Assembly (NCBI GenBank): GCA_900088475.1
Contig: FLMG01001546.1
Coordinates: 79,370-143,369, forward strand
Source: Hyphochytrium catenoides
Taxonomy: Eukaryota > Sar > Hyphochytriomycetes > Hyphochytriales > Hyphochytriaceae
Reading direction: 5' to 3'
Length of the DNA stretch: 64,000 bases
Position 1 is the stretch's first letter; each line of letters starts with the position of its first letter. Both the position numbers and the translations under genes were made by a program. Positions 1 to 45,784 of this stretch are shown here, one piece after another. The notes under the pieces are model-generated. The model was given only the letters and a program-made list of their open reading frames with translations, ran no database searches and was not told the DNA's origin.

Positions 1-3000
1 CCTTTGCTCTGCCAGCCTTTGCTCTGCTAGCCTCTTTTCGTTTTCAAGTTGTGTCACATGCTCCTGCTCGAGTTTGGCGATCTCTTCCTCTGCTTTTTTC
101 TTTACTTCCAGTTCAAAGTCCTCTTTCTGCTTCTTCAATGCCAGAATGCGCTGCTCTTTTTCTGCGAGAAGATTATCCTATTTGTCCATACGGCAATGTG
201 TGAGCTTTGCGCAGCAAGGGCAGCGAAGCAAGGAAGGGGCTGTTAACACCCGCAAGAATTAGGTCCAAGGGGCCGTTATGAAGTCTCATAGCGAGTAGTC
301 AGAATCAGAATTGGAAGAATTGCGTCGAGTAGAGGGGCACAAACCTGAAAAACTCTCAGCTCTTCTTGAGCTTGTTTCGCATTCCGTAGNNNNNNNNNNN
401 NNNNNNNNNNNNNNNNNNNNNNNNNNNNNNNNNNNNNNNNNNNNNNNNNNNNNNNNNNNNNNNNNATGGACGTTGTCTCCATTTCTAGTGTTAGCTGTCT
501 TTCTTTATACTTGCTCTCCAGCTGGTTTAGAGCATCCTCTTTATTAGACTCGGAAGCACCCTCTGCTACCAGTCTCGTTAAGAGTTCCGCCCTTTCTTTC
601 CCTTTCTCCTGCAGCAGCCCTCCTAGGGCCTTTCTCATTGCCGCAGAACGCTCTCCTGCTTGCTTGGCCAACAGCTCCGTTGTCTCTCTTTGGTGTCTCC
701 TTTGCATGACGATTTCAACAGCTTCGTTCACCCGATCTCCGTCAATGATGCCACTTTGTATAGTTTCCTGAAATAAGTAACATGAAGTAGGTGGCCATGA
801 CCAAGATTAGAAATTAGTGCCAAACGGTGTTTGCCTCCATCAGTTTTTGAAGATGCGTGCATTCATTATACTAGCGTCAGGAAATAGATAAAATGCACGC
901 ATCAAGAGAAGGGAACCCTTCTAAAGCGCGCATTTACAGTCCGTGATTGTACGCGGAGAGTATACGATAAGCCGTATTACTCTACTTGATACAGGATCCA
1001 AAGATAGAGGATCTAAAGAGAAGAGTGATGAAAAAAGCGCAAATAGCCAGACACATTAATCACCTGTAGAGCCTTGGCCTCTCTCTCCATATCAATTTGA
1101 GTCCTTAGATTTGAGGACTCTATTTGTTGTTCGGATATCGTCTTGGCTTTCTCCTCCTGTTGTTTCTGTGTGATCTCCTGCTGCTTCATTTTCTTCCGCA
1201 ATTCGATCCTCTTCCTTAGCTGATCTTGTTTCTTATCCTGTGATTCAGTTGCGAGAAGATACAAAATGATCAGGGTCAATGCTCTTGCCCCGAAAGCAAC
1301 CCATTTCAACGTTGGTTGGCTCTCCTGCTGTCGCTCGCTCTCTTACTGGACTACTGTCTCCGCCTTGAACGGGAATCACTGACCTTCTCAGCCTCAATGA
1401 GCCGTGCATGCTGCGTTAACTGATCGTCGTACTGCCGCTTCACGTTCGCTAACTCCTCCGTCGTGGCTGCTTCTTTTAGTAGCTTCTCCTGTAGCTCTTT
1501 CTTCTTCTCCTCAATCAGCCGGTTTGCCTCGTCCTCCTACAGTGCGCACACGCTATGTGAGTGCTGTCTGAGGTGACTTGTCGTCTTTATGCTCTACCTG
1601 GCGCTTCAACTCTGCAGCAAGTTCCTGCTGCAGGGCTGCCATGGCCTCCTTCTCCAGCTTCTCCTTTTCTTCTCGATGCTTCTTTTCGAGATCATCCCGG
1701 GCCTGCAGGCATTATCAGAAAAATAAGCAGCTTCTTCTTCGAAGCACAATCAAGGCTTCAATGTTACCCTTCGTTGCTCGTCTTCCAGGCGGAGTTCCTC
1801 ATCAGACTTGCCGCTCTCTGCAGCTGTTGACTCCACCTTCTCCCGCAAAGCTTTTTCCCAGGTACTTCCTTGGCTTTCCAATTCTTTTGTCTCGTTTTCA
1901 CTCTTGACGGTAAAGAAGAGGACATTAGCGGTTAGAGGCCCCTCACCGATCCTGTACTAAAGAGCCTAAACCTACCATCTTCTGCATCATCGCCTTCTTT
2001 TTCTCCTCTAGAGCTTTCTTTTTCTGAGCTAGCCTTTGCTCCAATTTAGAAGACGCCAGTCTTCCAATCGCTTCGCTGTCAGCGTTTCGCTTAGCTTCTT
2101 CCTTCTGGTACTCTTGGGCAACCCTCGCGGCTTCCATTTGTGCTTGATCCGCTTCGGCCTTGGCTAGGGCCTCGGCAGCCGCTTTGGCAGCTGCAGCAGC
2201 AATCTTGGCTTTGGAAGCACTCTCAAAAGCGGCAACCTCCTCCTGGAGTGTCTTCCCCTTTTCAAGCTGCGGCGCAACAAAAGTCAGAGTAATTTTCACG
2301 TTCCTGCTTATCTAGCTTTCACTCCTGAGGCTCGATTATCGAGTTCGATTACTTCGGTACAGATCTATCTCAGCGAACTTTCTAGAGGTCTGTCAAGTGT
2401 GTCTGGGTTACAAAAGAGCGTCTTACCTCCATCAGTGCGGCCAATTTGCGTTGCTGGTCTTCCAACAGCTTCTTACGCTCCGCTTCCTCCTCGCCTTGAA
2501 GTTCCTCTTCAAGCTTCTGCTTTCCGCTTTCCCCCAAGGCCATGGCCTCCATCTCTTTTTGTCTAAGTGCTCTCCTTTGCCTGTGAGGTTGATGTAAGGG
2601 TTCCTGTCGATAGTCTATATTGTGACAAAGGAGCTACCGCAATCTCTCCTCCAGCTTTTTGCTTTCTCCTTCTTGTTGGGCGGCAAGCTTTGATTCTAAA
2701 GTTTCCAGGTGCTGTTGGTGCTCGAGCTTCATCCTCTTCAGACTCTGTTCTGCTTTGTCCTTTTCGTTTTCAGCATCCGCTAGATTCTTCTCTGCTCTCT
2801 TTTTGGACTCTTCCAGGAGCACTTTGTCCTCTTCCGCTAACTGTAATGGACAGCCATGTATACAAGTGGAATTTGGACGAACTGGAGCAAAGGACTTACC
2901 TGTGATGTTGATTCCTGGTGAGAGCGACTTTCAGGAAGAGATATGCTGCTAACCTCGTCCTTTCCTTGGTCCCTAGAGCTGAAGATCGACTGCAACGCGT

Positions 3001-6000
3001 CCAAGTACCGTCCCTTTGTCTTTCCACTTTGCTCTCTAGCCTCATGTAGTGCTAGCTCCTTCGAGATGGTCCTCAGGGCACTCTGCGCTGCTCCAAGGGC
3101 CAGCCGGGCCCGGACGGCTTCTTCGAGGACGGGCCTCCTTTCTTCGACCAGCTCCTGGCGAAGCTTCTGTATAACATCCCTTCGCTCCTCTGCCATGGTC
3201 CTAACCTCTGACGCAATATCAGACTGCCGGTGCAATGCTTCAGTTAAGCTAAACCCAATAACGATAAGCTCTTGTATTTTCTTACCTCCGTGAAGCCTGG
3301 GAGACTGCCTCCTCTTTCAGATGTCCTACCGTAAGTAGTGAATGGTAAGAAGCCAAGATTGCCCAATTACCCCTGGGCACGACTAGTGGTCACCCCTTAC
3401 TTCCCATCTGATAAGCTTACTAATCACCCAGAAAAAGGCGTCTCCTGCTACTTACCCCACTCTAGCCTGCAAATCGCGGAAATGAGCATCTTCTTTTCGC
3501 TTCAGCTCGTCTAGCTTGTCCTTGATCTTTCTTTCTTGGACCTCCCCAAGCAGTACAAGTCTGTCTTCCACATTTTTCCGATGCACTTCGGCATTCACCG
3601 CTCTTTCTTGCACATCTTCCTGGAGTCTTGTTGCGGTCTCTTGCCACTCGCGAGCTACCTTATTCTCCTCCTCCGCTATCATCTCCTGACCTTGGAGCAT
3701 GATTTGCTGCTGCAGAGCCAGCTCCTGCTTGGAAACCTCCTCCTCAATCTTCTTTTCTGCCATGGCAATGTCCTCTGCTGACTGATCCTAGTTTAAGAGG
3801 CACCACATAGGTGAGTTGGTCAGCTGCAAAGTCCACCAGTGAAATGGACTTCAGGGAAATCTATCCAGTGGGAATAGTCCAATGCCTCTTCTAACCTTCT
3901 TGTCTTTAAGTTTGCCGAGCATCCGCTTTTTCCTGTTCATCAGCTGCTTCCTCTGCCTTTCAAATTCTTGCTCCAGATTGGCATACAAATCCTTCATATT
4001 CTGATCACATTTCTCCTTCATGTTTTGCATGACACTTCGCACCTCGAGGGCAGCTTGCCTCTCGGCGGTCTCCTCCACTGCAGTTCTTGCAGCGGTGGCA
4101 GCTGTCAAGCCTGCGACCCTTGTCTGGGCCAGCTTTTCGGTGACAGCAGCCAGTGCAGTCGTCTGGCTATTGTGAAGCTGCTTGAATTCTGTCTCCTTCT
4201 GCGCCAAGATAGAGTCTAAAATTTCGTCACGAGAAGCCTGCATGAACCACAGCACCTTAGTAATCGTTCTAGTTTCCTATTCGACTCGGATTAGCAGCAA
4301 AGGGTTTTGGCACTCTTGTGTTTGGAGTGGACTTTCGTCAAATACCTTCAGCTCCTGCTCTACCTCAGCCATTTTATCCGCAATCTCATTTTCGGTTGCT
4401 CCAGCTGCCCTTAAGTCCTCTTCAACCTTATTTGACAGCTCCCTGAAGATAAAGTTAGCCGTCGCTTGCTACTTAAGGGGCAGCTGGTACCCTGGTACTC
4501 ACCTTCTAGTGTGTTCAGTGCCTGACAAATGGATGGTGGCACTTAGTGCCATCTGTTTTTTTAGGAAATCGTACTCCGCAGAAACATCTCCCTGTATAAG
4601 GCGGTCTTCTAACTCCACTTCGTAACGAGCAAGCTCGGCTGAAATGGTTTTTGTCGCTTCTGACTCCTCTAGGCGCCTTTCTTCTTGCTTGCGTGCCTTA
4701 AGATGCAGAGCCTAGTTCATCGGACCGATTGGCCGAAGCGAGGGGTTGCAGTTTAGTGTTGTCTTTTAGACAAACTTAGTACAGCAATACCTTCTTCCTC
4801 TGCACTTCTTCGTCTGCCGCCCGGGCTAGACGTTCGCTTAATCTCTTGCCCTCCTCTTGATGCTTCTCTGCCAGCTCTCTTTCTACTTGTTCTTTCTCCT
4901 CTGAAGTGGCATCCGCATGGGTCAACTCTGCCAGACGACGATCTTTCTCCTCTTGCTGGGCCTTCCGGAGATTCTGTGTAGCAACTGCTTTGTCCTGCTC
5001 CAGCTTCGCTCTAAGTGTGGCCAGCTCGGATGCATCCGAGCTTTCTTGGTCCTGCTCCGCAGAAATAGGCCCATTAGAGTAAAATGGTCAGTAACTCGAC
5101 AGCGAGGATTGTTCAGACAAGGTTTAAAAAGCCACAATGCATCCATCAGAGAATAAGTAGCCCTCCCGAACTTCATAGCCAGTTTAACACTCTGCGAAAA
5201 CCCTTGAGGACACATTTGACAATACTTTACCTTAAATTTGTGATCTACCCTCAGTTTGGCCTCCGCCATGGCTATCTCAACAGCCATAGAACTGGCAAGG
5301 CTCGATGCCGCAGCGGCCTTTATTCTTGCCTCCGCAAGCCTTTCAGTAGACTCCTTTTGCAACTGAGCCCACTGTTCCCTCTCCTTATCTGTGGCATCGC
5401 TCCATTCCTTAGCTAGCTTCAGATCAAGGAGTTCTCGCTCAACCTGTGGAGAGAGATTTGTCAGACCAACGAGTTGAGTCAAGGGTTGGATCAAATGTCG
5501 CATATATATCTGAGCACTAGGGCAATAAGGAAGGTAAGAAGTTGGAAGTCCGGTCCAGAGCCGCCGAAAGGGTTTGTGAGATACCGCTTCCTCCTGTTTT
5601 AAGCCGTCGTTTAGCATGATCTTCTCGTCTTCTGCTTTTGCAGCGGCTAATTGTCCTAGCCTGACATTGCGCTTTTGCCTAATCATGAGAGTCTTAGATA
5701 TCTCCTAGAATGGCTAACGGAAGCGTTTAGTTGACCTCAATCGGTCCTCAAGTTTGCCCTTTTCCAGCTCTTTTTGAGCCACAAATGCCTGCTCCCGAAG
5801 CTTCAAACTGGCCTCGAGAGTCTCTTGAAGGAGTCTGAGCTCTTCCGCTGTCCTCAACTTGCTCACCTGTGCCAACAGAAGTCAGCATATAAAATATGAA
5901 GCGGTCATCTCGATCCGATCATTCAAGCACTTACCTCTGCAGCTGCTGCATTGTCCATTGCTGTCTTCTCTGCTTGCTCTGCAAGGACAGTTCTCTCGTC

Positions 6001-9000: not shown

Positions 9001-11030
9001 GCAGAAGTCATCATTTAGGGTAGATCCGGAACATACGTTTTAAGTAGGACGCCATACACTGTAAAGCTCTTCCGTCGCAGGTGTATCTGCTCTTCAGTCT
9101 TGGCGACGTTCTCAATCACGCGCTCTAAATCTCTTCTATCTTCTGAAGCCCTTTCTTCTAGTTCCTTCCTTATTTCCGGCGAGATCTCGACACCTGTATC
9201 CTCCAGAGCCATTATCTGTGATAGAAGGCGACATCGGTTACGGGCATTAGCCAAGCTTAACAAGAATGAATGCTATTCCTCCCGCTATTGCCAGCCTGTA
9301 TCTATTCATCTTACCATCTCCTGTCCCATGACTTCTACACGTTCAGCATCAGATTTAGCTGCTGCTCGTTCCATCTCAAGGTTCTCTGCCAGGAAATCCT
9401 CTTGAACTGGGGCACTATGTAGGAGAGAATCTATTTGCCGTCCCTCCTCAAGAGATTGGACGGAGGATGTCCGCTTCAACATTATTTCCTTTTCGAGGGC
9501 TTGTAAAGCTGCCCTGATTGTTTTTTGGACGTCCAACATCTTCTGGAAGGAGGAACCAGTCTCTTCCTTCACCAGTTGAAGTCTTTCTTTAGCTGCCTCT
9601 GTGGAGCTCTTCAGAGAATCAAGGAAACGAGAGAGCCTAACTGAGAGCTTCCCCACTGGGTTTAGGAAAGTGATACAAAAGAGGATGATCAAGTTAGCTA
9701 AAGTCCATTGTCTTGATCGAAGCGGAGTTATCCTACCTAATTCCTCTTCCAAATCCAAATTCTGCTTCTCGATGACACTTTGAAGAAGATTCCAGGAGTC
9801 TGTCAAAAACTTATTGAGACCCCTTTCAAAGTTGTTCATGCCTGCTGCAAAGAGATCAAGCCTCTCTACTATTGCCTTAGTATAAATGTTATCAAAGTCC
9901 CCTTCTGTCTTCGTCAACATCTCTCGGTGATTTAGAAGCTCCAGGACCTTGGAACCCTTCACTCCCTGCGCATTTGCCTCCCAAATGGCTACCGCGGCGG
10001 CGCATCTAATCTTTTCGCAACCGCAAAGCGTCATGATGCCGAGATAAGGGTTGCTTGCAAGATTGACGGGCAGCTCTCTGATACAATGCTTAAACACACG
10101 GTCCATCATCTCCTGCAGTCTATTGAAAGTCGCTGATTGCAGCTCAAGTGATACCCTATGATCCTAGTAGTCGGAGTGCATATTAGGCAGAGGTATGGCG
10201 GGACGCCGTCATCACCGTAATGTACCTTCTTCGATGCCTCAAGCATCTCAGCAATCACCCTACGACTTAACTGGAGGGTGCCTCCAGAGAGCGTCTCCGC
10301 CAACTCAGCCAGGGCATTGTGAAGGTCTTCTTGAGCCTGATACGCGTGTTATTAAGACCAATTCTTGCTGATGGCGTTTTCGCCGGTTATGGGCCTTACT
10401 GACCTCTGTCAGTCCATCCTGGAAAGACTCTCTGGCGTTAAGTTCTGCGAAGAGCTGGGTGATCATGAATTTTTCGCTTCCTCCAACAAGCTTCGCTCCT
10501 TCAGCGAGCATGACCTGTAAAATCTGCTTGATCTCATTGGCCTCAAGCTGACAAGGATAACCTCAGTAAGAGGGCATCAATCTCAGCAAGCTGAACAGAT
10601 ACCGGAAATACCTTTAGAAGCTTCTGAGCTTCTTCTGCAACCTTGTTCTGTGCCTCAAAGCTCTTGCTGTTAGACTCCTGTATTTGTCTGAGTGCTACCA
10701 TAACTGCTTCATCGACTAGTGTGTCCTCAACCGTTAATCCTTGATCTGACATATAATTGATATCAACGAAAGCTCGGAACAACTTGGGTCAGACCACTGA
10801 AGCCTTCTACCTTGAGAATCAGGCGATATGGGGAGATGGCTTGCCATCGTCTTAGCAAGCTCACCCTGCATCTCATCTTTCTGCACTTCTACTTTAGGTT
10901 GTTCTTGGAGGCCAGTCAACTCTTGTCTCTCCTTAGGCTGCACCATGGCGCCCTTCTGGTGGAGTTGGGAAAAATCCTTCTTCTTCGCCTTTTCTTTATA
11001 ACCTAGGGGGAATAATAGAGGTGGTCAAAA
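1..11030 (-). other. intracellular coiled-coil tail of the giant protein
   Basis: About fifteen or more short exons in this stretch all read as Glu/Lys/Arg/Gln/Ala-rich heptad sequence, beginning KEKAKKKDFSQLHQKG after the membrane and still open at base 1. Examples are the frames at 7433-6690, 8151-7717 and 2299-1943. Cysteine is rare, unlike the ectodomain. The last bases in the window encode a tandem pentapeptide, RLAEQ RLAEQ. I found no catalytic motif. I infer a filament-forming or cytoskeleton-linked tail. Exon borders were not all resolved. Confidence 0.65.
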
Positions 11031-14000
11031 TTACGCCGCTTGATGCGTCCTCATACTAGACATACCATTGACGGTCAACTCGCTGCCCATCCAGTTGCTC
11101 CTGCGAATATAGTATAGGGAAAGAATCACAAGGAAAATAACCCCAAAAAGTCCGCTCAACAAGCCGGATACCAATCCCCAATCTGGTGTGAGAATAATAT
11201 TCTTGGATTTGTTGGCACTTAGTTGCAAGAGGCTGGAGGAGCTGAGCGTCGTGATACTCTTTCTTGGGTCGGGACAGCTCGTCTGGCCATTCATCACAAC
11301 TATCACAGACTGGGCAGCAGGATTGCTACTCATGCTGAACACATATGTTCCTAGAGTAAGAGAGATTAGTAATGGCTTATAGGTCACCGAGACGCGTCCA
11401 CTAACCCTCTTCCAAGAATGTAAAGCCGAAATACTTGACATCGCTGCCTCCTTCTATTTGTCTTTGCAGCTGCCTGAACAGTCCGAAATCAAAGTTTTGA
11501 TTGGTGTTCAGCATGCTGTCCTTCACGTATATAGGATACACTCTACTCGTCTGCCCTGTCGTCGCTGTCAAATCGAAGAAAACACTGTCTCCTTGCTGAA
11601 GGCACACCACCGGGTTCGTAACCGACACCTCCAAGGGTAAGGCGCCCAACCGCCGCCGAGCTGAGGATGATGTGCCATTGGTCGTCGGAACAGTAGAGGA
11701 ATAGCTACCTGCAAATCAGTGAGGTTAAGGAACACAATTAATTGCATCGGGATGCCAAGGAAGAGTAAATACCTCTCATCTCTGTTGGAGAGACCAGGAA
11801 GGACACGACATCGCAAGTTGAGCCCGTCATGCACTCGATTTTGCCGCTGAAGCCTGTGAGTTTTAGGATGTCGAAACTCAAGACCGGCATGGAGTATAGA
11901 CTGCTCTTTCTTCTTACCTGGAATCTGGGAAGGCAGGACGGACACCTGCTGATTCGTCAACGGATCAATCACATTCAATCGTCCACTCTCCTTGTCCACA
12001 GTTGTCTTTTTTAGCAGGTCGCGGCAATTCGCATCACACGTCACATCTATGTCGACTTGACTATGGCAGTCGCAGATGCCAAAGCGGGAAACAAACTGAC
12101 CCCCTGCAGGACACTTGTTATCGCAGGCTTTATCTATGTTGACACATTTACCAGTCGAATCCCGCACATAACCTATGGAAAAAGAAGAGTGATGTTAATA
12201 AACTACTAGAACGAAGGAAGGTTACATCACCTACCGTCCTGACAACGGCTATAAACCTTCGGCTGGCAATCGGTATCCCCGTCTCTGTCGCTCTGAAGCT
12301 GCCAATTTTCATCATAGAACTCATACCCAGGACGGCATATACAGAGCCCATCCGACTTCTGGAAAGTCCTGAACGCCCCCTTGCATCGGCAGACGACACT
12401 ACCCTCTTCACTCGTTGAGCTGCTAGAGCACGGGCGGCAAGAGGCCTGACCGGACTCGGCGCCGAAACTACCAGCTGGACAAGGGCGACAGGCTGTCCGA
12501 TTTTCAGAACCTGTGTCGGCGTTAAAATGGCCCGCTGGACAGGGAGTCGCCGCTGCGGAACCAGGCGGACAATAATGGCCAATGGGACAAGGATATCCCC
12601 CGTCTCTCCCCGCATGGCTGGGTATTGCTGTAATAGTCTTTCCAAGGCAGACAAACCCTCCTAGACATCTAGCGCATGTCGAGCTATTAAGCTGGTCATT
12701 ATATTGCCCCGCAGGGCAGTCTTCACATCCATCAAACGTCGAATTTCTCTTGCCAGCAATCCCTGTAATACGTCCTCGCGTTCCCAGAGGACAAGGGACC
12801 GGGAAGCCAGTACCAACTGGACAATAGAAGCCCTGATATAGATTTTAGTAACTTTTGAGGGCTCCTCGTTGTACTTTAGCTTACCCGAGGACATGCCAGG
12901 GGATCTCCCGTTCCGGGTGGGCAGTAAACTCCATCCGCACATGTTATCGGTTCCCGTGACCCGGTCAAGCAAAAGAACCCAGCAGGACACAAGTTACAAG
13001 AAGCGGACCCTTCAGTCGCATAAGATCCTCCTGGGCAAATGTTTGGAAGCGTGCTACCCGACGGGCAAGCAAATCCCGCTGTGATCTCGTCAGCAAGTCA
13101 AGAATAAGACTTTCTGGAAAGTCTACTTACCTGAACAACGAGAGCAGGATGACGCTGAAGTACCACCTAGCTCAGCTCGATAGGTACCAGCCGGACATTT
13201 AGTAGCCTCCGTCGCACCTTCAAGGCAAAAGGATCCCGATGGGCAAGGATAGTCCGAATAACTCGCTAAGGCAGTCTGGTTGCATAGGAATCCCGAAGGG
13301 CAGCTGCGGCAGCTTTGTCTGGTACTCTTTTGCATCTCTTCATTGTACGTGCCGGCCAAACATGGAATGGGGGCAGATCCTGCAGGACAATAGTGGCCTG
13401 AAATAAAAAGCCAAATTAACAGATCCTTACTTCAGCCCATCAGCAAGCAAAAGACCATGACCTGCGGGACAATCCTGGCCAAGGNNNNNNNNNNNNNNNN
13501 NNNNNNNNNNNNNNNNNNNNNNNNNNNNNNNNNNNNNNNNTGCTGGACATGGACCTCCTCTGTAAAGCTTAAGTATGGTTAGAACAAGCTCTTTCAGCTC
13601 AATCGAGGGACATTACCAAGGGGTCTTGTTGAGAAAGAGGAAACATTTCGGCGTCTACTCCCGCAAGAACTAAATTCAGAGTGAGGGCTGGCTCAGGTGA
13701 CGACATCCCTGCTATACAGAAATGTCCAGCAGCACATTGGCCAGAGATGATCCCGTCGCGACAATATGAGCCGCCTGGGCATTCTGAGCAGTTTGATGCA
13801 GACGCAAGTCCGACCGTGGCGCCATAAGTTCCCAGTGGACAGGGAATTGGCTCGATTGTTCCCTCCTGGCAATAGAATCCTTTGGGACAGCTGGAAAGGG
13901 CGCTGGAGCCTTTTGGACAGTATGAGCCCCCAGGACAGGCCGAGCATGAAGTGCTTGCTAAAGTATTCGTCATCAGTATACAAAGGTGCACGGGGTGTAT

Positions 14001-17000
14001 CTTCTGATCTTTTACCTGGATTAGGATTATAGGTTCCAGCTGGGCAGTCGACTTCCACAGCAGATCCATTGACACAGAATTTCCCTGCTGCGCATGGAAA
14101 GCCTGGAGATGATGGAAGAGTTGTAGATTGTACGTGGTAGAATACTTCATCGTCAATAGAATACCTGTTCTAAGGTCCCTAGGCGCAGGAATAGATGCAC
14201 CACCTATGCACGCGTAGCCCCCGAAACAGAGCCCTCCGCCGATGGCGGTAGGGAATGGTGATTGCGCCCCACCGCTGCAGTAGAATCCTGGTCCACATGG
14301 CCCTGTTGGAGCCGTCAGCCCCGTGGCGTTGCAGAACTGGCCGGCTGGACAGGGACTACATTGAGCAACAGTCTGAAGCGTGGGAGTAAGTTATACAATA
14401 ACTAAACACAACTACATAAGAAGCAACAAATATTACTTTGAGAGCGGGCGTGGCGCTGAAGGTACCCACTGGACAAGGATACCCTACATAAGAATCAGTT
14501 CCGCTGGGACAGAAGTGACCACCTGGACAGGGAATAGGTGTGGACGCGTTGGCAGGGCAGTACGATCCTTCTGGGCAAGTCAGACATCTCTCTTGTTGAG
14601 GATATGGCTGATAGGTTCCGGCCAAGCAGGGCAACGCGACGGCAGAACCCAGCGGACAGAAAGAACCTACAGGACAAGCCAGCGTGGGCTCCTTTGTCCC
14701 AGAAGGGCAGATAAAACCTCCTGGACATGGAGTAGTAACGTTGAAAGTACCGCTGGTTGGGCAGAAGAAGCCTGCGCTGCACTGCTGACATTGGTATACC
14801 GAAGCAAGACTAGTGGCTGAAGAGTAATAACCTGCAGGGCAGGGAAGTGGTTCAGGCGTTCCTTCGGGACAGTAACTGCCAGACGGGCAGATATCTCCTT
14901 CCGTCACTGGTCCACCACGAGCAAGGGGCATTGAGGTGGTGCTTCCAGTCCTGCAGTAGAATCCTTCCCTGCAGCTACCCGAAGGAGAGGTCAAGCCAGC
15001 CTCAGCGCAGAACTTCCCCGGTGTGCATGGTGCACATTGAGAGGCTTGCTTCAAAGAAGTCTGATTACTGAAAGTTCCTTTTGGACAGGGAGTCAGCATG
15101 TACGTGGCCGAACCATTAGGGCAGTAATAGGCTGGGGGGCATGCAATTGGAGCGTCAGATCCCATGGGACAGTAGCTTCCTGCAGGACAGGTCAAGCACT
15201 GCCAAGTGCCTACCAGATTCTGATAGGTCCCACTGGGACAGGGAACAGGCGCGCCCGAACCCAGAGGGCAATAGTTGCCGATCGGACATGTATGATTGGT
15301 GGTGCCAGCTTTTCCTGGACAGTAAAATCCCTCTGGACAGAGGACGCTGGGGCTTGTCATATTGCTCTCTGGACACAGATAGCCTGCTGGGCACGCGGTA
15401 CATTGCTCTTCTTCTGCCAGTCCTGTGCTGTTAGAAAAGAAACCAGGCGGACAAGGTTTGGGAGAGAATGTGCCCTCAGGGCAGTAGAAACCCCGTGGAC
15501 AGGTGCCGCCCACCAAGCCTGCAGAGTTTCTCTGGCCCGTTGGGCGAGGATCTGCGGCACCCTGAAGACAGTAGTATCCTGCTGCACACTTGCCCGTTAC
15601 GGAGGCACTGGATGCTGTATCCGCGCAATAGTTACCGGGGCTGCAAGACGTAGGGTGCGATGAGCCCTCGGGACAAAATTGGCCCAGTGAACATGGACCC
15701 CCTACTGAGGATAGAGTAGACGGAGTTGAGGTATTAGAGCCACCTACACAGAAGTAGCCCTGCGCGCATCGGCCAGTCACGTTGGTCTGTCCCGAAGAAC
15801 GCACGTAGTAGCCGGGTGGCGCTGGAAGGCATTGGGAGGGGATGGTAAGTCCATAAGAATCGCTATAGGTCCCACTGGAACAGGGATATTCTGTCGAGTA
15901 CCGTGTTCCACCAGGACAATAGTGTCCAGGTGGACATGTGTTGGCTGCATAATCAGCGGTTCCGGTTGGACAGAAGAAACCGGCGGGACAGGTATTACAA
16001 GTTTCGCTTCCGCCATTAGCCGAATAGGTGCCTGCTGGACATGAGATCGGTGCCACAGCTCCTGCAGGACAGTATGATCCCGGTGGACACCGATCCCCAC
16101 CTACTCGAATACCCCCAAGTAACACAACCACCCCAGTAATCGGGTTAGGAACCTCGACTCCAGCCCGGCAATAGTAGCCGGCTGCACAATCGCTCGCAGT
16201 CGCCGGGCCGCCAGAACAAAACTTTCCTGCCGAGCAGAGTGAGCAGGTAGTTACCGAGGTAGCTGCAGTCGCGAGCGAAAATGTTCCAGGTCGACAAGGC
16301 TCCGGTGTCAAACTCCCAGCAGGGCAGAAAAAACCCTGAGGGCAGGCATAACCTGTAACGCCGTCGTTAGGATTCGGAATGCTGCTACCGCCTTTACATA
16401 TAAAACCAGCGCTGCAGTTCCCCGTTGGGGCCATAAGACCAAGCGAGCCGCAATATTGACTGGGCGGGCAAGAAATGCAGTCTGTGGCGGCGGTGCTATA
16501 AGAATTAGGGTTGTAGGTTCCCAGGGGACACTTCAGAGCTAGCGGTGTGCCGAGGGGACAGTACGTTCCAGGAACACAGGCCTCTCCAAAAGTCATGTTA
16601 GCAGAAGGGCATTGATACCCTATCGGACATGGAGTGCAAGTTGCAGCGCCAGGAGACATAGAATAAGTGCCTGGAGGGCAGGGCAAGGGGCTTGATGAAC
16701 CCTCCAGAGTGTAAAATCCCGGAGGAGTGATGTATTGGGTGGCATTCTCGCTCCCTCCATGACAATAATAGCCCGGCGCACATTTACCCGTAGGTGCTGG
16801 TTGTGAGCTCCCGCTACAATAATACCCTGGAGGGCATGGCTGACAGTCTAGCGCCGAGGTTGAGCCCGTATTATTATTAAAAGTACCAGGAGGACAAGGA
16901 CTTGCTTGATATGAGCCACGCGGACAGAAACCACCTGGAGGGCAAGGTCCTCCCGTACCCGGCACCGCTACAGATCCGGGGGACCCAGGAACAGACGACA

Positions 17001-20000
17001 CGGACCCTGAAATGCAGTAGTAACCAGCATCACAGAGGTTTGTTGGCGCGGGTAAACCCGCCCCATTGCAGAAATAGCCAGGACTGCACGGGAGACATTC
17101 CTCTACTGCTTTCAGACCAGTGTAATTGCCAAACGTCCCAATAGGACAAGGCTCCGGTTCTACACTCCCAGAGGCACAATAGTGCCCACGAGGGCATGTA
17201 ATAGGGGACTGAGAAGCTCCAGGACAGAACCCTCCAGCAAGACAGGTTAGACATTCCGCTAACGACCCCAATCCAGCGTTGGGGCCGTATCGGCCCGGAG
17301 GACAACTCTTCTCCTCGGGTCCTGTAGACGACCCTGGACAGTAAAAGCCGGGCGAGCAGCGTCCACGAGGGAAAGTTGAATTTGCACTACACCACCATCC
17401 CTTTGGGCATTCCAAGCAGTCCAGGGCTGACATGGCATTGGTGAGATTGTTGTAGGTTCCTGGCGGGCATGGTGTAGGCCTTGAAGTTCCTGCAGTGCAA
17501 AAGGAGCCTGATGGGCAAGGAGTCAGGGTGGAGGTGGGAACTACAGCCGTTCCTTGTGCACAGTACATTCCAGGGAAGCACACCCCAGCAAGAGCCGCCG
17601 TACTGTTTGAGTAAGCGCCACCTATCAGCATTGCAGTTTGTGACGTCCCTTCAGCGGCACAGAAGTACCCAGCAGGACATCTTGAACATTCTGCTAATCC
17701 TGCTTGCGAGAAGTAGCCTGCTGGGCAAGGAATCGGTTCACTCGCACCTTCCGGGCAAGCGTAACCTTCTGGACAGCGGTTACAGGCTGGCCAATCGCCA
17801 GGCCCCGCATCGGTAGATCCCAACCTCGAGGAATATGTGCCCCCAGGGCATGCAGCAGGAGAAATGGAGGCTGCAACGCAATAGGATCCCTTGGGACAAG
17901 CCATGCATTCTCGCTCATCGATGCGTCCAGTGTTGTTAGAGTATGTTCCTGCAGGACAAGGGTAGTCTGTTGGGGACCCTGTACCCTTAGGACAGTAGTG
18001 ACCCGTTGGACAGATCCCTGTGATCTCGCTGGAAGCTCTTGCACAAAAGTGACCTTCTGGACAAATAGTGCACTCTTCTGCAACTCTCAGATCCCTTCGG
18101 GCACTATAGGTCCCAGGAGGACAGGGAAACTGGGTGGCGTAAGAGGTACCTCCGGATCCGCTACTTGGGCAGTAGTATCCTGGAGCACAAGGAAGGGGAG
18201 GATTACTGTTACCTCCGGTCCCCTGTTGACAATACTGGCCGGCAGGGCAAGGTAAGCAATCGGTCAGGCTAGCGGCAAAAGTTAGATTGTTGATTGTGCC
18301 TGCAGGACAAGGGAACTGCGTAGCGGAAGCTGTGCCTGAAGGGCAATAGTATCCTGGACTGCATGGAAGCGACGCCACCGAGGCTCCAGTTGAGGGACAC
18401 GCAAAACCCGGAGGACAAGGGAAGCAAGGACCCGTCAGGTTCACTGTTGGGTTATATGTACCAATCGGGCAAGGGAGGGGAGATATGCTGCCCCCCGGGC
18501 AGTAGCTACCAGAGCTACAACCGTGGCAGTCGGAAACAGACGTTGCAAGTGTCGCATTGTTATAGGTTCCTGCAGGACAAGGATTGCCTGTGTAAGTGTC
18601 GGTACCCGCAGGACAATAGTACCCCGATGGGCAGGCAATGCCCCCAGAGGAGCCAGAGGGGCAGTAGTAACCTGGAGGGCAAGGAAGGCAGCCAGAGATG
18701 GAAGATTTTCCTAATTGTAGATTAAAGGTCCCTGCTGGACATGACGGTGGGGAAGATCCAGTGCCCAGCGGGCAATAAGATCCACTGGGACATAGGTTAG
18801 AGAGCATCGAGATGTAAGTCGACCCCGTAGGACAGAAGTAACCCGCTTGGCACGTTTGGCAAGCATGCGAGACGCTTCTCCCTGCCGTTATATTACCAAA
18901 AGTGCCTGCAGGGCAGCGGGTAACTGTGCTGGCGGGAGAACAATAGGAACCTAATGGACAGGCACTGCCCTCTGGGGTGGGGGATACCGAGCCTGCCGGA
19001 CAGTGATAGCCGTCCTCGCAAGCAGTGCAAGTTGCTGCGTTACCGCTGGAATAGGTACCAACCGAGCACTGCACTGGAGGCAATTCGGGATCACTGCAAG
19101 AAGAGCCCGCAGGGCAATCGGTGCAGGTGACAGATCCCCCCAAGGAATACTTGCCTGTGGGACATCGGACAGGGGCAACATCCGTTCTGGCACAGGAATG
19201 TCCTGGGCACGTATCTTGGTCAAATTGCCCATATCGAGGGAAAGACAAACATAGCGTTCTTACCTGCTGGACAGGAGGTGCATTTGTTGGCTCCTGCTAG
19301 AGAGTACTCCCCTACTGAACAAGGGACTGCTACGGCGGAATTGGTGACAGCACAGGCATAACCAGCAGGACACAGAGTACAGGATGACTGGTTACCCATT
19401 GAGAACGAACCCACTGGACAGAGTGTTCGGGAATCACTGTCCGTCAATGGGCAGTAATAACCGGGCGGACAAGGATTGCATTGCTGTTGCCCACCAACAC
19501 TGTATGTCCCCGGTGCACAAGCTAATTCAACGCTCTCATGTGTAAATGGGCAAGCATAACCAGGCGGACAAGATGTGCAACCTGCTGAGCCCACGATAGA
19601 ATAACTTCCCGGGGAGCAGTTGATGATGCCCGTCCCGTCTGCATTGGGGCAGGCCTGGCCCGGTGCACAAGGCGTACATGCTGCCTGACGACCAAGAGAG
19701 AATGTCCCTTTCGGACAGCTTTGCGATGTGCTTTGTTCCTTAGACGGACATTGCTTGCCAGCCGGACAAGCCGTGCAAGAGGCTGCACCCCCTGTGGAAT
19801 ATGTCCCATTCTCGCATGCTACCATAATGCTTGCTGTTGTGGTCGGACACGCAAATCCAGCAGGGCAGCTTGTGCAGCTCGTCTGATTACCGATACTAAA
19901 AGTGCCGAGTAGACAGAGTTGGGGAGTCCCATTCAGTGTTGGACAGGCAAAGCCCGCCGGGCAATCTTGGCACCTAACTGCTCCCGTTGCGCTATAACTT

Positions 20001-23000
20001 CCAGAAGGACATACTATAGGAGGCTGAGAAGTTAACGGACAGTAGGACCCTGCGGGACAGGTTGTGCAGGAAGTGGAGCCTGGGTTAGAGTATGTGCCTG
20101 AGCTACAGGTAACTGGTTCCTGGTCCGTCCTGGAACAAGAGAATCCAGCGGGGCAAGTTGCGCAAGAACCACTGCCGAGTAAAGAGTAGGTTCCAGTAGG
20201 ACAATTCGTCGGACTTACGCCAGGATTAGTGCATCCCTTCCCTGCCGGGCACTTTTGGCAGGTGCTGCTGCCTGCGGTGCTGTAGAAGCCAGGTGAGCAG
20301 CCTACTGGGTTCTGAGAAGATGACGGACACTCACTCCCAGCTGGACACTGCGTGCAGGAGACCGAGGCAGCCGTGCTGAATGTCCCAGACGGGCAAGGGG
20401 AGCAGGTAGAAGCTCCCAAAGCGCTAATAGTACCAGCGGGACAAGGGGTACATGCCCTAGCTCCTCCCCAGCTGAAGGTCCCTGCGGGGCACTGTTGGGG
20501 TGAGATTGCGGGATCAGCACAGCTTTGGCCAGCGGGACAAGAGGTACACGAGGTGGACCCGTTGTTTACGTTGTATGTTCCCTCAATACAGGGTGCGCAT
20601 CGGGATGACCCACCTAAGGAGAAAGTACCTGGAGGGCACGGCAGCGGGTGCAGTGCGGGATCTGAACAGGAAGCTCCAGGAGGGCAAGACACGCAGTACG
20701 CAGAGTTTAGAAGAGAGTAAGTCCCTGTCGGACAAGCAGCAGGAGCCACTTGATTTGGGCCGCAAGAAAAGCCAGCTGGGCAAGGGATACAAGCACTGGC
20801 ATTGGGCGCTGAAAACGAGCCTTGGCTGCACTCCACTGGCGCCAAGTGGGGCTGAGAACAGGAGTACCCAGCAGGACACGGTAAGCATGACGTTTGATTA
20901 GACAGTGTATTGTAGGTTCCCGTTTGGCAAGTGGAGCACACAATGCTTCCTCCTGATGAAAAAGTTCCTGGCGGACAGGAATTTGGCAGAACCGAAGCAC
21001 TAGGGCATGCATATCCAGGTGGACAAGCAAGACAAGAGGTTGATCCCAGCCCTGGGGCGTAGGTGCCCCCTGCGCATGGGACGCAGCTGGCTGAAGATAT
21101 TCCCCCAGAAGAAGATGAACTTCCGGAGGGACAAGGAATGGGCATCGTGCAGTTGCCGTGACAGTAATGACCAGGGGGGCATGTCAGACAGAAGTCTGAG
21201 CCATTCACTACGACATTGTACCGTCCTGCTCCGCAAAATTGAGGGCAGGTGGAAACGACAGGTGCAATCATAAATTTGACTTTGGCACTCTGCGGAACGA
21301 AAGATGCGTTGCTACCGTTGTATGCCAGATCTAAGCTTGCAGCTTGATGCAGCAGGCTCGAGCCGTATGCTGTTGAGTGCGATCCATTACTACCTGATGC
21401 TCGGACCGTTACAATGACGGGAACATTCCAATTCGCGGGCTCGATCTGCAGGGGCAGGTCAGTTTCTATCTCTAAGTAGTTCATTTCATGGCCGCCCACT
21501 CCTTGTTCGATCACATCGATCGTCACTGGTGCTTTTGGTCTGGAAAGGAGTGACACTGCATACGTCGTAGTCTCACCCTCCACTAAGAAAGTATCCGCTT
21601 TCAATAGGCTGATTCCGGTCACATCATTCTCATAGATGAGTACAGGCAATGTGAAGTTGCTCATTGCCTCTGTGGAGCCATCTTCCCTTTTGACCGTTAC
21701 CATGTGAACAATGGACTCCAGACGAACTGGGTTAAGCAGAGCATCGTCATCGTCGATAACTCTGACCACAATATTTTGAGGGATGGAGTAGTTCGAGGTA
21801 CTGAAACTTAGTGAAGGAGGGGAGATAGTGATCGATCCAGACGCAGGGACCATTGTAACGACCACGGGATCGGTCGGTACCTCAAAAAAGGCAATTGAGT
21901 AGCCAGCACTTTCTCCCTCATAAACCTTGACTCGACTGACATTAGAAAGAATTTGCGAAGGGCGGGTATCGTCAGCGATTGTCAAACCAGGTATGCTTTC
22001 ACTCTCATCGATCACGGTAGACACATTCTTGGTCCTCGCGCGAATTGGTCCTGTTATGCCGGCACGGGGCGGATTCATGACCCCCTCAACTTTTAGGGTC
22101 AAGCTTGTCTGAGCTGAGAGTGCCTGGTCGATCTGGATTACAAGCTTCATAAAGTTTGCTTGCCTTTCGATCATAATGGATGAGACAGATATGGTGTCAG
22201 GACTGACCATTATCAAAGGGTACTTTACTATGGCGAAGCCAGGGGGCATTTCCACCTCCAAATAGGCACCGCTTGGAATAGGGTTTCCAAGAGTAAGGTT
22301 CAGAATAAGCCTAGGTAAGCCGTTGGTTGTTGCATCACCCTCAAGTTCCACTGTAACAGGTGCAAGACGCCCAGGAGTGGTGGTCAATCCGTATCTGGAA
22401 AGGCCGGAGTCAATAAGCCTTCTTTGGCTGTCTCGAGTTTGAACATTTATCGTCATTGGGCCTGTCACGTAAGCAGGATTCCTGATACCAGTGACAGACA
22501 TGGCCACCCTGGAGCCCGATGGTATGGGCATTGCTTCTATCTCGGTCAGTAGCAGCACCCGGTTTGTGTCACTCGTTTCGAGGGAGACATTGTAATGGCG
22601 TATCTCAGAGAAGATATCCACGATAATCTCTTCCGGGGGGGTTGAGAGAGTGAGAGCAGGAGGAAGTTCGATTGTGATGACGCCATTGGACGGGATGGAA
22701 TTGACGGTTGTGAAAGAGACATTTAGAGCCGTGTGCGCTCCAGCCGCAGACCCTCCCCCAATGTATGCTACTTCAAGCTCCGTTAGCTCGCCAGGAAGTA
22801 CGTCAATTACCGTCAAACCATCCGCAGCATCCACCGAGAAGGGCTGGTCTGCTACGTAGAAGCCCGTTGTAACGCGAAAAGTTCCTAAGGGACCGGCCAC
22901 TGGAGGGAGCCTCGTCGCGCTAATATTCAGCTGGAGGAATGTGCCGCTTGGAATATTCGAAAAGTAACGACAATGAATAATGTTGTCCATCTTGCTGCAC

Positions 23001-24989
23001 TGGGACGGTATGATGTCTGGCTCCTCCCCGCTGATCACTTGTGCACTTGTAAGGTTAATAGAAGGTGGGAAATTGACAGTTAAGCTTCCCTCTGACCGCA
23101 GAGTGTTAGTAGTCGTTACAGCTATTGTAAACCCGGAAGGTAAGCCCGCCCTTACGAATCCATAGTGCTGAACTCTTGCGAAAGCTAGGTTTCCGGGCAG
23201 AATATGGACATTAGGAGAGACTGCGCTGAACTGGATTACCTTCCCGTTTCCCTCATACTGGGTACTAACAGCCAGAGCACTCAATGCAGTGCTATAACCT
23301 GGAAGCTGGATGCCTAAGAGGAGAAGGCTAATTTTGGTGCTAGGAGGCAATGGTGCCAGCAGTGAAATCTTCAATTTCCGACCATCAAGGCTGGAGTAGT
23401 GGTCGTGCAGAAGTCCTTCAGGTATCGAAGTTAGAGTGGTTTCCCGTGAAAAGGATAGGTCGCCCGGTGCCTCTATCTGGATAATGCCTTCCATTGGAAC
23501 TGGGATGGATGTCGTCAAGGTAATGTTAAGACTTCCTAGCGACCCTGCACGCAAGGTGCCTAGCGGTCGCACGGTTATCTCAGAGAAAGGTTGGGGGAGT
23601 ACTGCGGCGGTGTGAACTTCACCGCCATCGATGTGTAACAAATCCTCTGTCATTGTGTGAAGACGGAGAGAAAAGTTGCCTGCGTAACCGGGATTTCTGA
23701 GGCCCACAATTCTGAGTGACAGTGTGGAATTAGCTGCTATTGTTCCGGAAGTTGTATAATCAATCAGTATCAACTTGTTTGCAGCATTGTCACTAAGGCT
23801 GCGAATATGAAGACTTCCGAGACCTGAGCTCTGGTCCACGGCTGCACTATCCGCCTCATAAGCAGAAGGAACTATTAACTCCAGAACACCTGTTGCAGGT
23901 AGAGCATTGAAACTTTTGAAGGTTACTGAAAGAGCACTACCACTTGACGGCTCTGTAGATGAGGTAGTGACCTCCAAAAGGCTGAGGTTTCGTGGGATAA
24001 ACATGGGGTAGTCAGCCTGGAAAAAGGAATCGAGAGCCGCACCAAGGGCCGTACTGGTGACCAGACCGACATAGCTTAAATTGCCAGACGTTGGAGGATT
24101 CCTGACCCCAATTATGCTTAAGACAATAGCTGTTCCTTTCGACACAGGAGCCATGCAGCGGAACAATATAGCACCATTTGTGATAGCAGGGGGTGATGGG
24201 ATCACAGCATTTGGGGTGGAGTAGACAGCAGCATCCGAGAAATTCATACCAGGGAGAAACACCCGAATTTGGCCATTGACAGGAATGGCAGTCTGAGGGG
24301 CAAAGGAGACATTAACCGTGCTCATCGCCCCGGCTTCTATCGATGAGAACGTGAAGAGTGTCTCTTTCAATGCCGGTGGATACAAAACGTACCCCTGCAC
24401 GGCGGAAGGTCCAGCTAAGGTGATGCCATCAGCCGACAGAAGTGTCAGGCCAAACCCTCCCGTAGAACCGGCGAAAGATGGGTTCAAGACATCGCGAAAT
24501 ACAATCTCCAGTTCCGAACTTTTCAACAAACTTGACCCTGAATGAGAGAGTGCGATAGAAAAGGTATTTGAGCTAGCCTCAGAGGTAAGCGACGCCAATA
24601 TATTCTTATTGGCATCGGTAACTGTGACTACTGTCGCGCTCAAAGCTGTAAACGAGGAGGGGAAGGTGACGTTAATAAGGCCGTTCACCGGCAGATCTGC
24701 CTCCAATGTAATCACAGCCACGATGTTAGCAATGCTTCCCGTTATCTGGGAGGTTGGAAGCACAAACCCAACATCGTCCGAAGCTGCCATGTCAGTGTGA
24801 GCGCTCATAAGTAACGATACGGGAGCAATCACACATCCTAAACTTACCCAGCTTTCTGTGAGTACTTCTAAAGTCGTCTTCGAACTGTTGTGCAATAGAT
24901 AGAGACTGCAGCACCAGGAGAGTGCAAAATGCTGCAAGGAGCTGATGCCATCGGAACCCCCTCCACAGTAGGGACTTTGGGGCCATCAT
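1..24989 (-). CDS. giant single-pass surface protein, cysteine-rich ectodomain and coiled-coil tail (3' end outside window)
   Basis: The start is the double ATG at 24989/24986, followed by a basic/hydrophobic signal peptide (LLAAFCTLLVLQSLSIA). Introns I could place are 24847-24784, 19263-19203 and 14436-14373. They leave two huge exons, 24783-19264 (5.5 kb) and 19202-14437 (4.8 kb); downstream exons are short. Order of domains: about seven ~115-residue beta modules, two Calx-beta-like modules, roughly 90 GCC2/GCC3 (ephrin-receptor-like) cysteine units, a juxtamembrane beta domain, one transmembrane helix at 11177-11106, then Glu/Lys/Ala-rich coiled coil running past base 1 without a stop. 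I estimate at least 6,500-7,000 residues. No kinase or other enzyme domain was seen. The role is unknown; cell-surface adhesion, wall or flagellar anchoring is inference. The coiled-coil part could be a separate gene, but I found no stop, 3' end or new start between the two. Confidence 0.75.
390..465. other. assembly gap (76 N)
   Basis: A run of N falls in the coiled-coil coding region; the reading frame across it cannot be checked. Confidence 0.99.
11106..11177 (-). other. single transmembrane helix of the giant protein
   Basis: This 24-residue hydrophobic stretch, GLVSGLLSGLFGVIFLVILS followed by LYYI, ends in the basic stop-transfer RRSN. It is the only convincing membrane span after the signal peptide. 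It separates the cysteine-rich part from the Lys/Glu-rich tail, giving a type I topology. Confidence 0.8.
11220..11640 (-). other. juxtamembrane beta domain, possibly cupredoxin-like
   Basis: After the last cysteine unit the protein has VCLQQGDSVFFDLT, then a KDSMLNTNQNFDFG segment, then FGFTFLEEGTYVFSM. 'GDxVxFxL ... GTYVF' resembles the core of cupredoxin-like beta sandwiches, but I see no copper-ligand His/Cys/Met set, so the fold name is tentative. It lies immediately outside the membrane. A small intron separates the two halves near 11400-11350. Confidence 0.4.
12050..21250 (-). other. cysteine-rich GCC2/GCC3 (ephrin-receptor-like) repeat array
   Basis: The translation is an unbroken array of units of the form 'CPxGxxC...PxxCPxGTYSxxGxxxCxxCPAG'. 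I count about 17 full units in the 5.5-kb exon and about 57 in the 4.8-kb exon, plus roughly 15-20 in the following short exons. This is the GCC2_GCC3/Ephrin_rec_like pattern (Pfam PF07699) seen in large protist and animal surface proteins, normally disulfide-rich and rod-like. One unit near 15800-15835 has lost two cysteines (APPGYYVRSSG). The array contains a sequencing gap at 13485-13540. Confidence 0.85.
13485..13540. other. assembly gap (56 N)
   Basis: A run of N falls inside the cysteine-repeat coding region. Repetitive sequence is a likely reason for the gap, and the true missing length may differ from the N count. Confidence 0.99.
21250..21960 (-). other. two Calx-beta/cadherin-like modules of the giant protein
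   Basis: Two consecutive segments begin VKVYEGESAGYSIAFF and FLVEGETTTYAVSLLSRP. Both have the 'xEGxxxxYxVxLxxxP' opening and an acidic DDDD or END loop (VRVIDDDDALLNPV, IYENDVTG) typical of Calx-beta-like and related Ca2+-binding beta modules. They sit between the N-terminal modules and the first cysteine repeat (CPQFCGAGRY). Calcium binding is inferred from the acidic loops only. Confidence 0.55.
21960..24783 (-). other. seven tandem beta-sandwich modules of the giant protein
   Basis: Each module of about 115 residues carries the same signature: a Leu/Ile-Val-Thr strand, then 'xIPxxGxIxVxFP' (examples: LPVNGLINVTFPSSF, IPVNGQIRVFLPG, IPSNGVITIELPPAL), then a later 'GxRNPxxxG' turn (GVRNPPTSG, GLRNPGYAG, GIRNPAYVTG). 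Many N-x-S/T sequons are present, consistent with a secreted, glycosylated domain. I do not know a named family for the module. The spacing and repeated signature show internal duplication. Confidence 0.65.
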
Positions 24990-29695: not shown

Positions 29696-30290
29696 TATGA
29701 GAGAGTTACACTTGATGACGTGAAGCGTTAGATATAGATAGGACTCTAGAAACGGCGATAATCGTTGCAGCTGCAGAAGTCCGCAGGATTTGTTAGGTCA
29801 ATGCATCTCAATACAAAAGGTTGCCCATTATAACGTATGGGGGAGCTTTAGATCTCTCTCTGATGGGTTCATTATTCTTATCGGGTGGCTCTTCCGACGC
29901 AACAGATTAGACACAGCAATGACCAGCCGATTGATCACGGGACTATGACTGCTGGCAATACTTAGTTCTACAGCGCGATCTATGAAGCTGCAGTTCTGGT
30001 GGTGGCAAGCTGATGTGCTGAGTATGCTTGACTACTTCTGCCCGCTCAGCTTGCTGTCTTCATTTACAAGGGCAATCGGGGGCAAATTCATCTTGAAGGG
30101 AATCAGAGGCAAACACCTTGAAGAGGTCATCATCTAAAGAGCCGTCTTGGCGCAAGGGAAGACATGCAAGTTTACGTGTGATGGAGTGATGCGGGAGCGA
30201 GTGACAAGAGAAATGAGCTGAATGAGAAATGCCAGTCCAGATATGTCCACCTATCTAAGTATAGATGGCTCAAGGCGAATGTTCACATCA
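29696..30290. other. intergenic region upstream of tRNA cluster
   Basis: No reading frame with a believable product and no RNA gene was recognised. It must contain the promoter of the minus-strand SGNH gene. Confidence 0.5.
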
Positions 30291-30362
30291 GCATTCGTGG
30301 TCTAATGGTTAGGATTCTTCCCTTCCAAGGAAGCGGTCCGGGTTCGATTCCCGGCGAATGCA
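30291..30362 (+). tRNA. tRNA-Gly (anticodon UCC), copy 1
   Basis: The 72-nt cloverleaf has a perfect 7-bp acceptor stem (GCATTCG / CGAATGC), a 5-bp anticodon stem CTTCC/GGAAG, the loop CTTCCAA giving anticodon TCC, and the T loop TTCGATT. The B box GGTTCGATTCC is canonical. CCA is not encoded. It decodes GGA (and possibly other GGN) glycine codons. Confidence 0.97.
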
Positions 30363-30450: not shown

Positions 30451-30522
30451 GCATTCGTGGTCTAATGGTTAGGATTCTTCCCTTCCAAGGAAGCGGTCCG
30501 GGTTCGATTCCCGGCGAATGCA
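30451..30522 (+). tRNA. tRNA-Gly (anticodon UCC), copy 2
   Basis: Identical to copy 1 over all 72 bases and 88 bp downstream of it. The flanking sequence is unrelated to that of copy 1, so only the gene body is conserved. Confidence 0.97.
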
Positions 30523-30627: not shown

Positions 30628-30699
30628 GCATTCGTGGTCTAATGGTTAGGATTCTTCCCTTCCAAGGAAGCGGTCCGGGTTCGATTCCCGGCGAATGCA
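30628..30699 (+). tRNA. tRNA-Gly (anticodon UCC), copy 3
   Basis: Third identical 72-nt copy, 105 bp after copy 2, again with unrelated flanks. Confidence 0.97.
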
Positions 30700-40589: not shown

Positions 40590-40905
40590 TGTGTAAATCA
40601 TGATCCTTTCACCCTCTTCCGCATGCTTAAAGTAGTTCATCTAGCCTACAGAATGGCAACTGAGAACTAGAACGTCGGGACTGGCAGGGTGGTAAGCAGT
40701 ACTTAGGGCAAGTCTAGGAATGGGGGTGGGAGCTACTGGTAAACATGAGTGTTTGGGGTGCGATGGCTGTCTTAAAATCAGGTAGGGGCAAGACAGGCTA
40801 GGAGAGCAAAGAAAATCCTCACTTAGGTGATTGTTGATCCCTAGAGGAAGCGAAAGAAGTGCCATTACCGGCTCCGACTGGCCTTCTGAAAGGCTCTCTA
40901 CGACC

Positions 40906-45699: not shown

Positions 45700-45784
45700 C
45701 TGTATGCAGCAGATAACGAATACTTATTAAATATTAATCGCAGATCAACTTAAGGCTATAAGGGCCCTTCAGAGGAAGAAAGAG

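Follow-up and report, generated by a model that had tools for sequence, protein, structure and literature searches.

We describe a gene in a 64,000-nucleotide window (the whole stretch of DNA analyzed) of the Hyphochytrium catenoides genome that is predicted from sequence to encode a giant type I, single-pass membrane protein, which may act as an outside-in tether. The window covers bases 79,370-143,369 of contig C439, in a genome assembly of 42.5 Mb and 1,105 contigs. We assign a probability of roughly 0.6 to this reading as a whole. It is highly probable that the predicted protein consists, in order, of a cysteine array, a membrane-proximal domain, one membrane helix, a long helical tail and a C-terminal domain; the tether function taken by itself is tentative, at a little under even odds. 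The topology is type I, with the array outside and the tail cytosolic, which follows from established knowledge. The family to which the protein belongs is conserved, old and apparently unstudied, and its architecture is new to annotation, not to nature. An earlier reading of the DNA, made from its letters (the sequence-only reading), had held a very long coiled-coil tail on such a receptor to be undescribed. This was too strong: the same combination is found in public proteins, and a 2014 paper had met similar giants (PMC4132317, in the excerpt considered).

Gene Model and Domain Organization

The minus strand carries two long open frames, 24985-19220 (1921 aa) and 19296-14356 (1646 aa), followed by many short exons that continue to base 1 and past it. 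We modeled the gene with a small splice-aware gene finder of our own, including 30 kb beyond window base 1 (negative coordinates denote positions beyond this base) and refining the start region. A first, lax model chained spurious exons and was discarded; a stricter setting lost exons that were kept by a model trained on the coil. The predicted gene comprises 53 exons and 52 introns (median 77.5 nt) in one frame; it starts at 24,989 on the minus strand and stops at approximately -1,648, about 1.65 kb past base 1, with a product of 7,152 residues. All introns are GT-AG; because the finder nearly requires this, the count gives no independent support. The model bears out a single minus-strand giant protein with a cysteine-rich ectodomain whose coding frame passes the window edge, as the sequence-only reading had proposed, and a start at 24989 fits the coordinate at which that reading had ended the feature. 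The features of the gene, all on the minus strand, are:

24848..24989: exon 1, start codon (ATG at 24989, preceded by an in-frame stop) and a segment resembling a signal peptide, aa 1-47
21254..24783: first part of exon 2, beta-rich at about aa 48-983 and Calx-beta-like at aa 984-1224
19264..21253: remainder of exon 2, where the GCC2/GCC3 (Ephrin_rec_like) cysteine array begins (Pfam PF07699, E 1.4e-27)
14437..19154: exon 3, cysteine array onward, aa 1888-3460 (PF07699, E 1.8e-7), after a predicted intron at 19263-19155
12235..14372: exons 4-10, final part of the array (to aa 3977) and beginning of the membrane-proximal domain; exon 7 (13 nt) uncertain
11406..12172: exons 11-13, membrane-proximal domain with a basic stretch (RRR) and a cupredoxin-like part (17-member family alignment; fold search on the model of the P0007 copy)
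11066..11350: exon 14, end of the cupredoxin-like part and the single membrane helix, aa 4301-4319 (hydropathy; helix aligned in relatives)
10865..11002: exon 15, juxtamembrane cytosolic segment with an H-x-KG motif common to the relatives P0007 and P0008
1..10745: exons 16-49, K/E/R/D/Q-rich helical cytosolic tail, aa 4384-6784 (exon 49 ends at -42)
beyond the window, to about -1,648 (stop): exons 50-53, with the C-terminal domain at aa 6989-7074

In residues, the membrane-proximal domain spans 3,978-4,300, the helix 4,301-4,319, the tail approximately 4,320-6,988 and the C-terminal domain 6,989-7,074. The donor of exon 1 at 24847 scores 5.9 and the following acceptor at 24783 is weaker (1.7), with the frame preserved. 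Masked N runs lie at 390-465, inside a coil exon, and at 13485-13540, inside a predicted intron; 26 residues of exon 48 are masked.

As a control for chance, the coil-trained finder was run on bases 1-10800, where it gave 613.6 on the minus strand (34 exons, 7,167 nt), 0 on the plus strand and 0 in five shuffles, and on bases 35,001-45,800, where it gave 17.8 on the plus strand and 0 on the minus strand; the control is partly circular because the finder's training seeds were drawn from the same region. Chance is not a sensible explanation here.

The protein begins with MMAPKSLLWRGFRWHQLLAAFCTLLVLQSLSIA, which looks like a signal peptide by eye. The beta-rich stretch that follows had been described as a series of modules. 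Its beta-rich character stands, while comparison of this part with itself (BLAST, E 0.01) finds no internal repeats, so that "modules" is a judgment made by eye. The Calx-beta-like modules are weakly borne out: this stretch can be aligned with repeats in P0001 and P0003, the former of which carries PF03160, yet Pfam returns no Calx-beta match for it even at E 10. DUF2808 is found in the exon 2 product at the whole-protein level only. Used as a query, the N-terminal beta part gives six matches, none related to the whole protein: giants of bacterial type, one of them labeled as coming from a bacterium, with Calx-beta, DUF2808 and other Pfam domains, and a EukProt protein, P0006, with Calx-beta-like repeats by eye. 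The cysteine array (aa 1225-3977) has 299 Cys in 2,753 residues and 88 copies of C-x2-G-x2-C, in good agreement with an earlier estimate of about 90 units, and Ephrin_rec_like (GCC2/GCC3) exceeds the Pfam cut-off in both long frames. The one membrane helix proposed earlier, GLVSGLLSGLFGVIFLVIL (hydropathy 2.46), is the sole segment over threshold in a 7,107-residue model lacking exon 1.

The tail was analyzed over 2,582 residues, of which 44% are K, R, E, D or Q and 1.1% Pro; it includes Pro-free runs of 710 and 642 residues. It shows helical periodicity at z=4.2 over block shuffles, which the ectodomain lacks (z 0.2 and -2.0). The power peaks at 3.6 residues and not at 3.5 (1.67 vs 1.30), which demonstrates a long amphipathic helix but does not demonstrate a classical heptad coil; of the coiled coil previously proposed, the long helix-periodic cytosolic tail is supported, and the heptad is not shown. 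The peak lies at 3.67 in P0007, P0008, P0011 and P0014, and peaks of 3.6-3.67 would fit an amphipathic helix, perhaps one that repeats every 11 residues instead of every 7.

Relatives in Protists and Vertebrates

With the membrane-proximal part as query we found eight relatives, P0007-P0014, among them a fish protein (P0012, Prochilodus magdalenae) and one from the metamonad Aduncisulcus (P0013). Their tails after the helix measure, in order, 3,863; 2,853; 2,706; 455; 951; 404; 378 and 1,825 residues, so that five of the eight (P0007, P0008, P0009, P0011 and P0014) have tails of 951-3,863 residues. The sequence-only reading had suggested looking in related genomes for the same domain order, and in P0007, encoded on a 15.9 kb contig, the membrane-proximal domain, helix and long tail are joined in one predicted protein. 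P0007 and P0014 begin at or within the membrane-proximal domain. Relatives that join these parts in one predicted protein argue against the idea that another gene has its start between 11,500 and 9,000. Just past the helix, the exon 15 pattern (Y-K/R followed by H-x-KG) recurs in P0007 and P0008 and is partial in P0009, P0095 and P0013.

A search with the fish protein P0012 gave 83 matches, all of them vertebrate-named except P0095. The vertebrate relatives have a cysteine array (Ephrin_rec_like), the membrane-proximal domain (aligned in 11), one helix and the C-terminal domain. Both ends of the Hyphochytrium protein are thus kept in vertebrates, where the spacer is much shorter: helix and C-terminal domain lie 1,695-3,527 residues apart in the five rows outside the vertebrates that have the domain (2,665 in Hyphochytrium), compared with a median of 289 in the 67 others (151-1,533, the longest of which may reflect a mis-called helix). 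The tail thus lies between two conserved ends and, to the extent that sequence can tell, this is a single gene and no chimera. In a tree of 20 rows, the 11 vertebrate rows fall on one side of a branch with 100/100 support; three of the nine other rows have very long branches.

The vertebrate members are annotated as zonadhesin, SCO-spondin or uncharacterized, e.g., si:ch211-286b4.4 in fish. Zonadhesin carries VWD and MAM domains. Neither domain is among the Pfam results for the two long frames of the Hyphochytrium gene (E 0.001; its shorter exons were not scanned) or for P0012 (E 0.1). The names zonadhesin and SCO-spondin are not borne out for P0012, the one vertebrate protein that was put through Pfam in full, in which Ephrin_rec_like is the sole domain detected. 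The vertebrate proteins P0015-P0094 and P0096 appear as a conserved gene family under the ill-fitting names zonadhesin, SCO-spondin and sodium channel beta-3. The sodium channel beta-3 entries, which have an added PF07686 domain, are probably fusion models, and their name suggests a neighboring scn3b gene in fish. No paper was found on si:ch211-286b4.4, and no such family is named in the titles or abstract beginnings of the open-licence papers found by our searches, which is weak evidence.

Two Conserved Domains Flank the Spacer

The membrane-proximal domain was compared in a 17-row alignment, for which 20 of the 91 family sequences were chosen by hand and P0010, P0011 and P0014 dropped (their start motif was unmatched; they were re-added for the tree). 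P0062, P0095 and P0076 were left out of the folding alignments only. The Hyphochytrium protein has the conserved Cys and the NPxxC, YPxYxK...N...FR and GTYVF signatures, and cysteines and signatures are mostly kept from Aduncisulcus to birds. A basic pair is present in 15 of the 17 rows, usually some 10-20 residues before NPxxC; the full R-x-K/R-R occurs in five, all vertebrate. The fold search points to the cupredoxins (pseudoazurin 1pmy, plastocyanin). The structural match is good, but it comes from a low-confidence model of the P0007 copy (pLDDT 56), with no Foldseek match at E 0.001, and no copper ligands are apparent by eye after EPGTYVF in the alignment. We therefore describe this part, on a weak model, as a previously unannotated, putatively cupredoxin-like domain. 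A genome search returned no second locus for it; other loci that match Ephrin_rec_like therefore seem to be without it.

The C-terminal domain was found in 73 of the 91 family sequences with an iterated profile whose seed tails were picked by eye; the Hyphochytrium copy, which helped build the profile, scores E 1.8e-18 against it. Used alone in a search of nine sequences, the Hyphochytrium C-terminus finds P0012 at E 1.4e-6. A model of the P0008 copy has the zincin-like fold of the Wss1/SprT/minigluzincin peptidases (5xbv, 4qhi, 4jiu). Those peptidases have a catalytic Glu, whereas none of the 73 aligned rows does; the HExxH active site is absent in the Hyphochytrium protein, which reads HAAAR. 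This would make the C-terminal domain a previously unannotated, peptidase-like fold lacking the catalytic Glu. Neither of the two domains gave a significant match in Pfam (best E 0.02), the C-terminal domain gave none in NCBIfam (best E 0.07), and PDB sequence searches with A1, P0007, A2 and A3 returned nothing convincing (best E 0.11).

Comparison with Known Systems

Giant GCC2_GCC3 proteins with alpha-helical C-terminal regions were reported from tunicates, molluscs and hemichordates in 2014, and assembly errors or two polypeptides were suspected (PMC4132317, excerpt). These "exclusive proteins" (tunicate CBY10027.1 and others from a mollusc, a hemichordate and a placozoan) are, like ours, very large with a helical C-terminal region, and some have GCC2_GCC3. 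In the excerpt they are likened to synaptonemal proteins, and no word beginning with "transmembrane" or "membrane" occurs in the text of that paper. Their kinship with the present family is probable, and the family bears on the suspicion of misassembly in such giants. The apicomplexan CRMPs and Babesia GDPs are also large, with GCC2/GCC3 or ephrin-receptor-like modules, but have 8-10 membrane helices compared with one here (PMC9815656, PMC9843837, both in excerpt); a comparable tail is not mentioned in these excerpts, where coil segments are drawn for some CRMPs. Membership in the CRMPs was considered and rejected, the conserved CRMP core having about nine helices. The trypanosome protein FAZ10, a functional analogue, is a giant coiled-coil protein that helps tie the flagellum to the cell body; the excerpt of PMC5358337 describes an N-terminal region free of motifs along with two coiled-coil domains, and reports no membrane helix.

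A Candidate Tether and Its Alternatives

To our knowledge, how the coats, scales and flagellar surfaces of protists are coupled to the cell interior is largely open. The family offers a concrete candidate with two conserved ends for such coupling, and it joins unnamed vertebrate genes with protist proteins. It is tempting to hypothesize that the cysteine array forms a stiff rod engaging the cell coat, a scale or the matrix, and that the membrane-proximal part is perhaps cut at the basic pair, its pieces staying joined. The tail would self-associate as a coil, giving a spacer of some hundreds of nanometers (about 0.15 nm per residue over some 2,650 residues, if continuous) whose length varies with lineage. 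The peptidase-like C-terminal domain, devoid of its catalytic Glu, would dock a cytosolic or cytoskeletal partner, so that the tether would run from the coat to the cortex or the cilium. Since the spacer is short in vertebrates while both ends are retained, the conserved function should lie in docking at either end and not in the coil.

Several observations weigh against this tether. The gene model is a prediction in which the small exons (13, 31, 11 and 14 nt) were guessed, and the error in the coil sequence could amount to about 100 residues. Nor do all members have a long coil: P0009 shows a weak helical period (z 1.6) and P0095 none (z -0.3, Pro 4.6%). No domain of a kind that binds the cytoskeleton was recognized in the protein, and the HAAAR motif implies that even the metal ligands are lost. 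The Hyphochytrium C-terminus alone does not find P0007, P0008, P0009 or P0014 even at E 10; their membership in the domain family depends on the iterated, by-eye-seeded alignment. Finally, the C-terminal domain was not found in four of the nine non-vertebrate rows (P0010, P0011, P0013 and P0095), some of which are perhaps truncated.

Among the alternatives, the protein might be a signaling or scaffolding receptor that bears no load, its ectodomain binding a ligand and its tail recruiting signaling or trafficking proteins through the pseudo-peptidase domain. Short-tailed vertebrate members retain both conserved ends, as such a receptor would, and Wss1, a neighbor in fold, acts both by proteolysis and by binding partners (PMC4559962, excerpt). 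However, a spacer of 1,695-3,527 residues in five non-vertebrate rows, Hyphochytrium included, would be costly for a pure scaffold, and we consider this explanation unlikely.

We regard it as improbable that the protein anchors mastigonemes or the wall at the flagellum, as the sequence-only reading had proposed, citing the algal protein SIP as a cysteine-rich partner of PKD2. In favor of such an anchor, the organism is ciliated, as its IFT46 (E 3.7e-88) indicates, and the cysteine-rich domains of MST1 build flagellar hairs (PMC11015965, excerpt). The statement on SIP is incorrect: in the same excerpt SIP is small and, together with MST3, completes a PKD2-like fold. The algal frame of that comparison is not supported, no light-harvesting (chlorophyll-binding) family having been found in the genome. 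Against such an anchor, the family occurs also in vertebrates, which have no mastigonemes.

Still less probable is an endomembrane tether of the membrane-anchored golgin kind, with a luminal cysteine array and a vesicle-capturing coil: a helix with a long cytosolic coil does recall giantin-type golgins, but in its luminal part, approximately 4,300 residues long and carrying cysteine modules of a coat-like kind, the protein differs from them, and the basic pair is typical of late secretory pathway cargo. Two genes, i.e., a cysteine-rich membrane protein ending soon past the helix and a separate downstream coiled-coil protein, would accord with the short vertebrate tails and with the two polypeptides proposed for similar giants in other phyla (PMC4132317, section 12, excerpt), but motifs shared on either side of the exon 14/15 junction, tails of at least 951 residues within one predicted protein in five relatives, and a C-terminal domain at the far end of long- and short-tailed members alike make this very improbable.

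Returning to the tether, we suggest, more tentatively than for the function itself, that it represents an ancient eukaryotic class consisting of a cysteine rod, a possibly cleaved cupredoxin-like domain, a helix, a spacer of about 150-3,500 residues and a dead peptidase dock. The class would predate the split of animals and protists, with the spacer long in protists and a stub in vertebrates, and would have been overlooked because its members were misnamed or taken for assembly errors.

Other Features of the Window and Genome

The remaining features of the window are:

28148-29797, minus strand: 549-residue frame with no Pfam match; a GGSSTAGGG motif recalls SGNH hydrolases (by eye)
30291-30362, 30451-30522 and 30628-30699, plus strand: three tRNA-Gly (TCC) in tandem, with equal scores
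31045-33072, plus strand: large exon of a family B DNA polymerase with the exonuclease domain; by eye, the epsilon catalytic subunit
52180-56715, minus strand: long exon of a ubiquitin-specific peptidase; a ubiquitin-like stretch lies just below the Pfam cut-off
63120-63998, plus strand: XK-related membrane protein, cut by the window end

Past base 1, the next gene on the same strand starts from about -3.9 kb and is TCP-1 alpha-like by eye. Elsewhere in the genome, giant single frames with Ephrin_rec_like matches, and IPT/TIG-like repeats by eye, are found at C1044:30154-50148 (6,665 residues) and C483:40758-55709 (4,984 residues); the former ends in a hydrophobic stretch.
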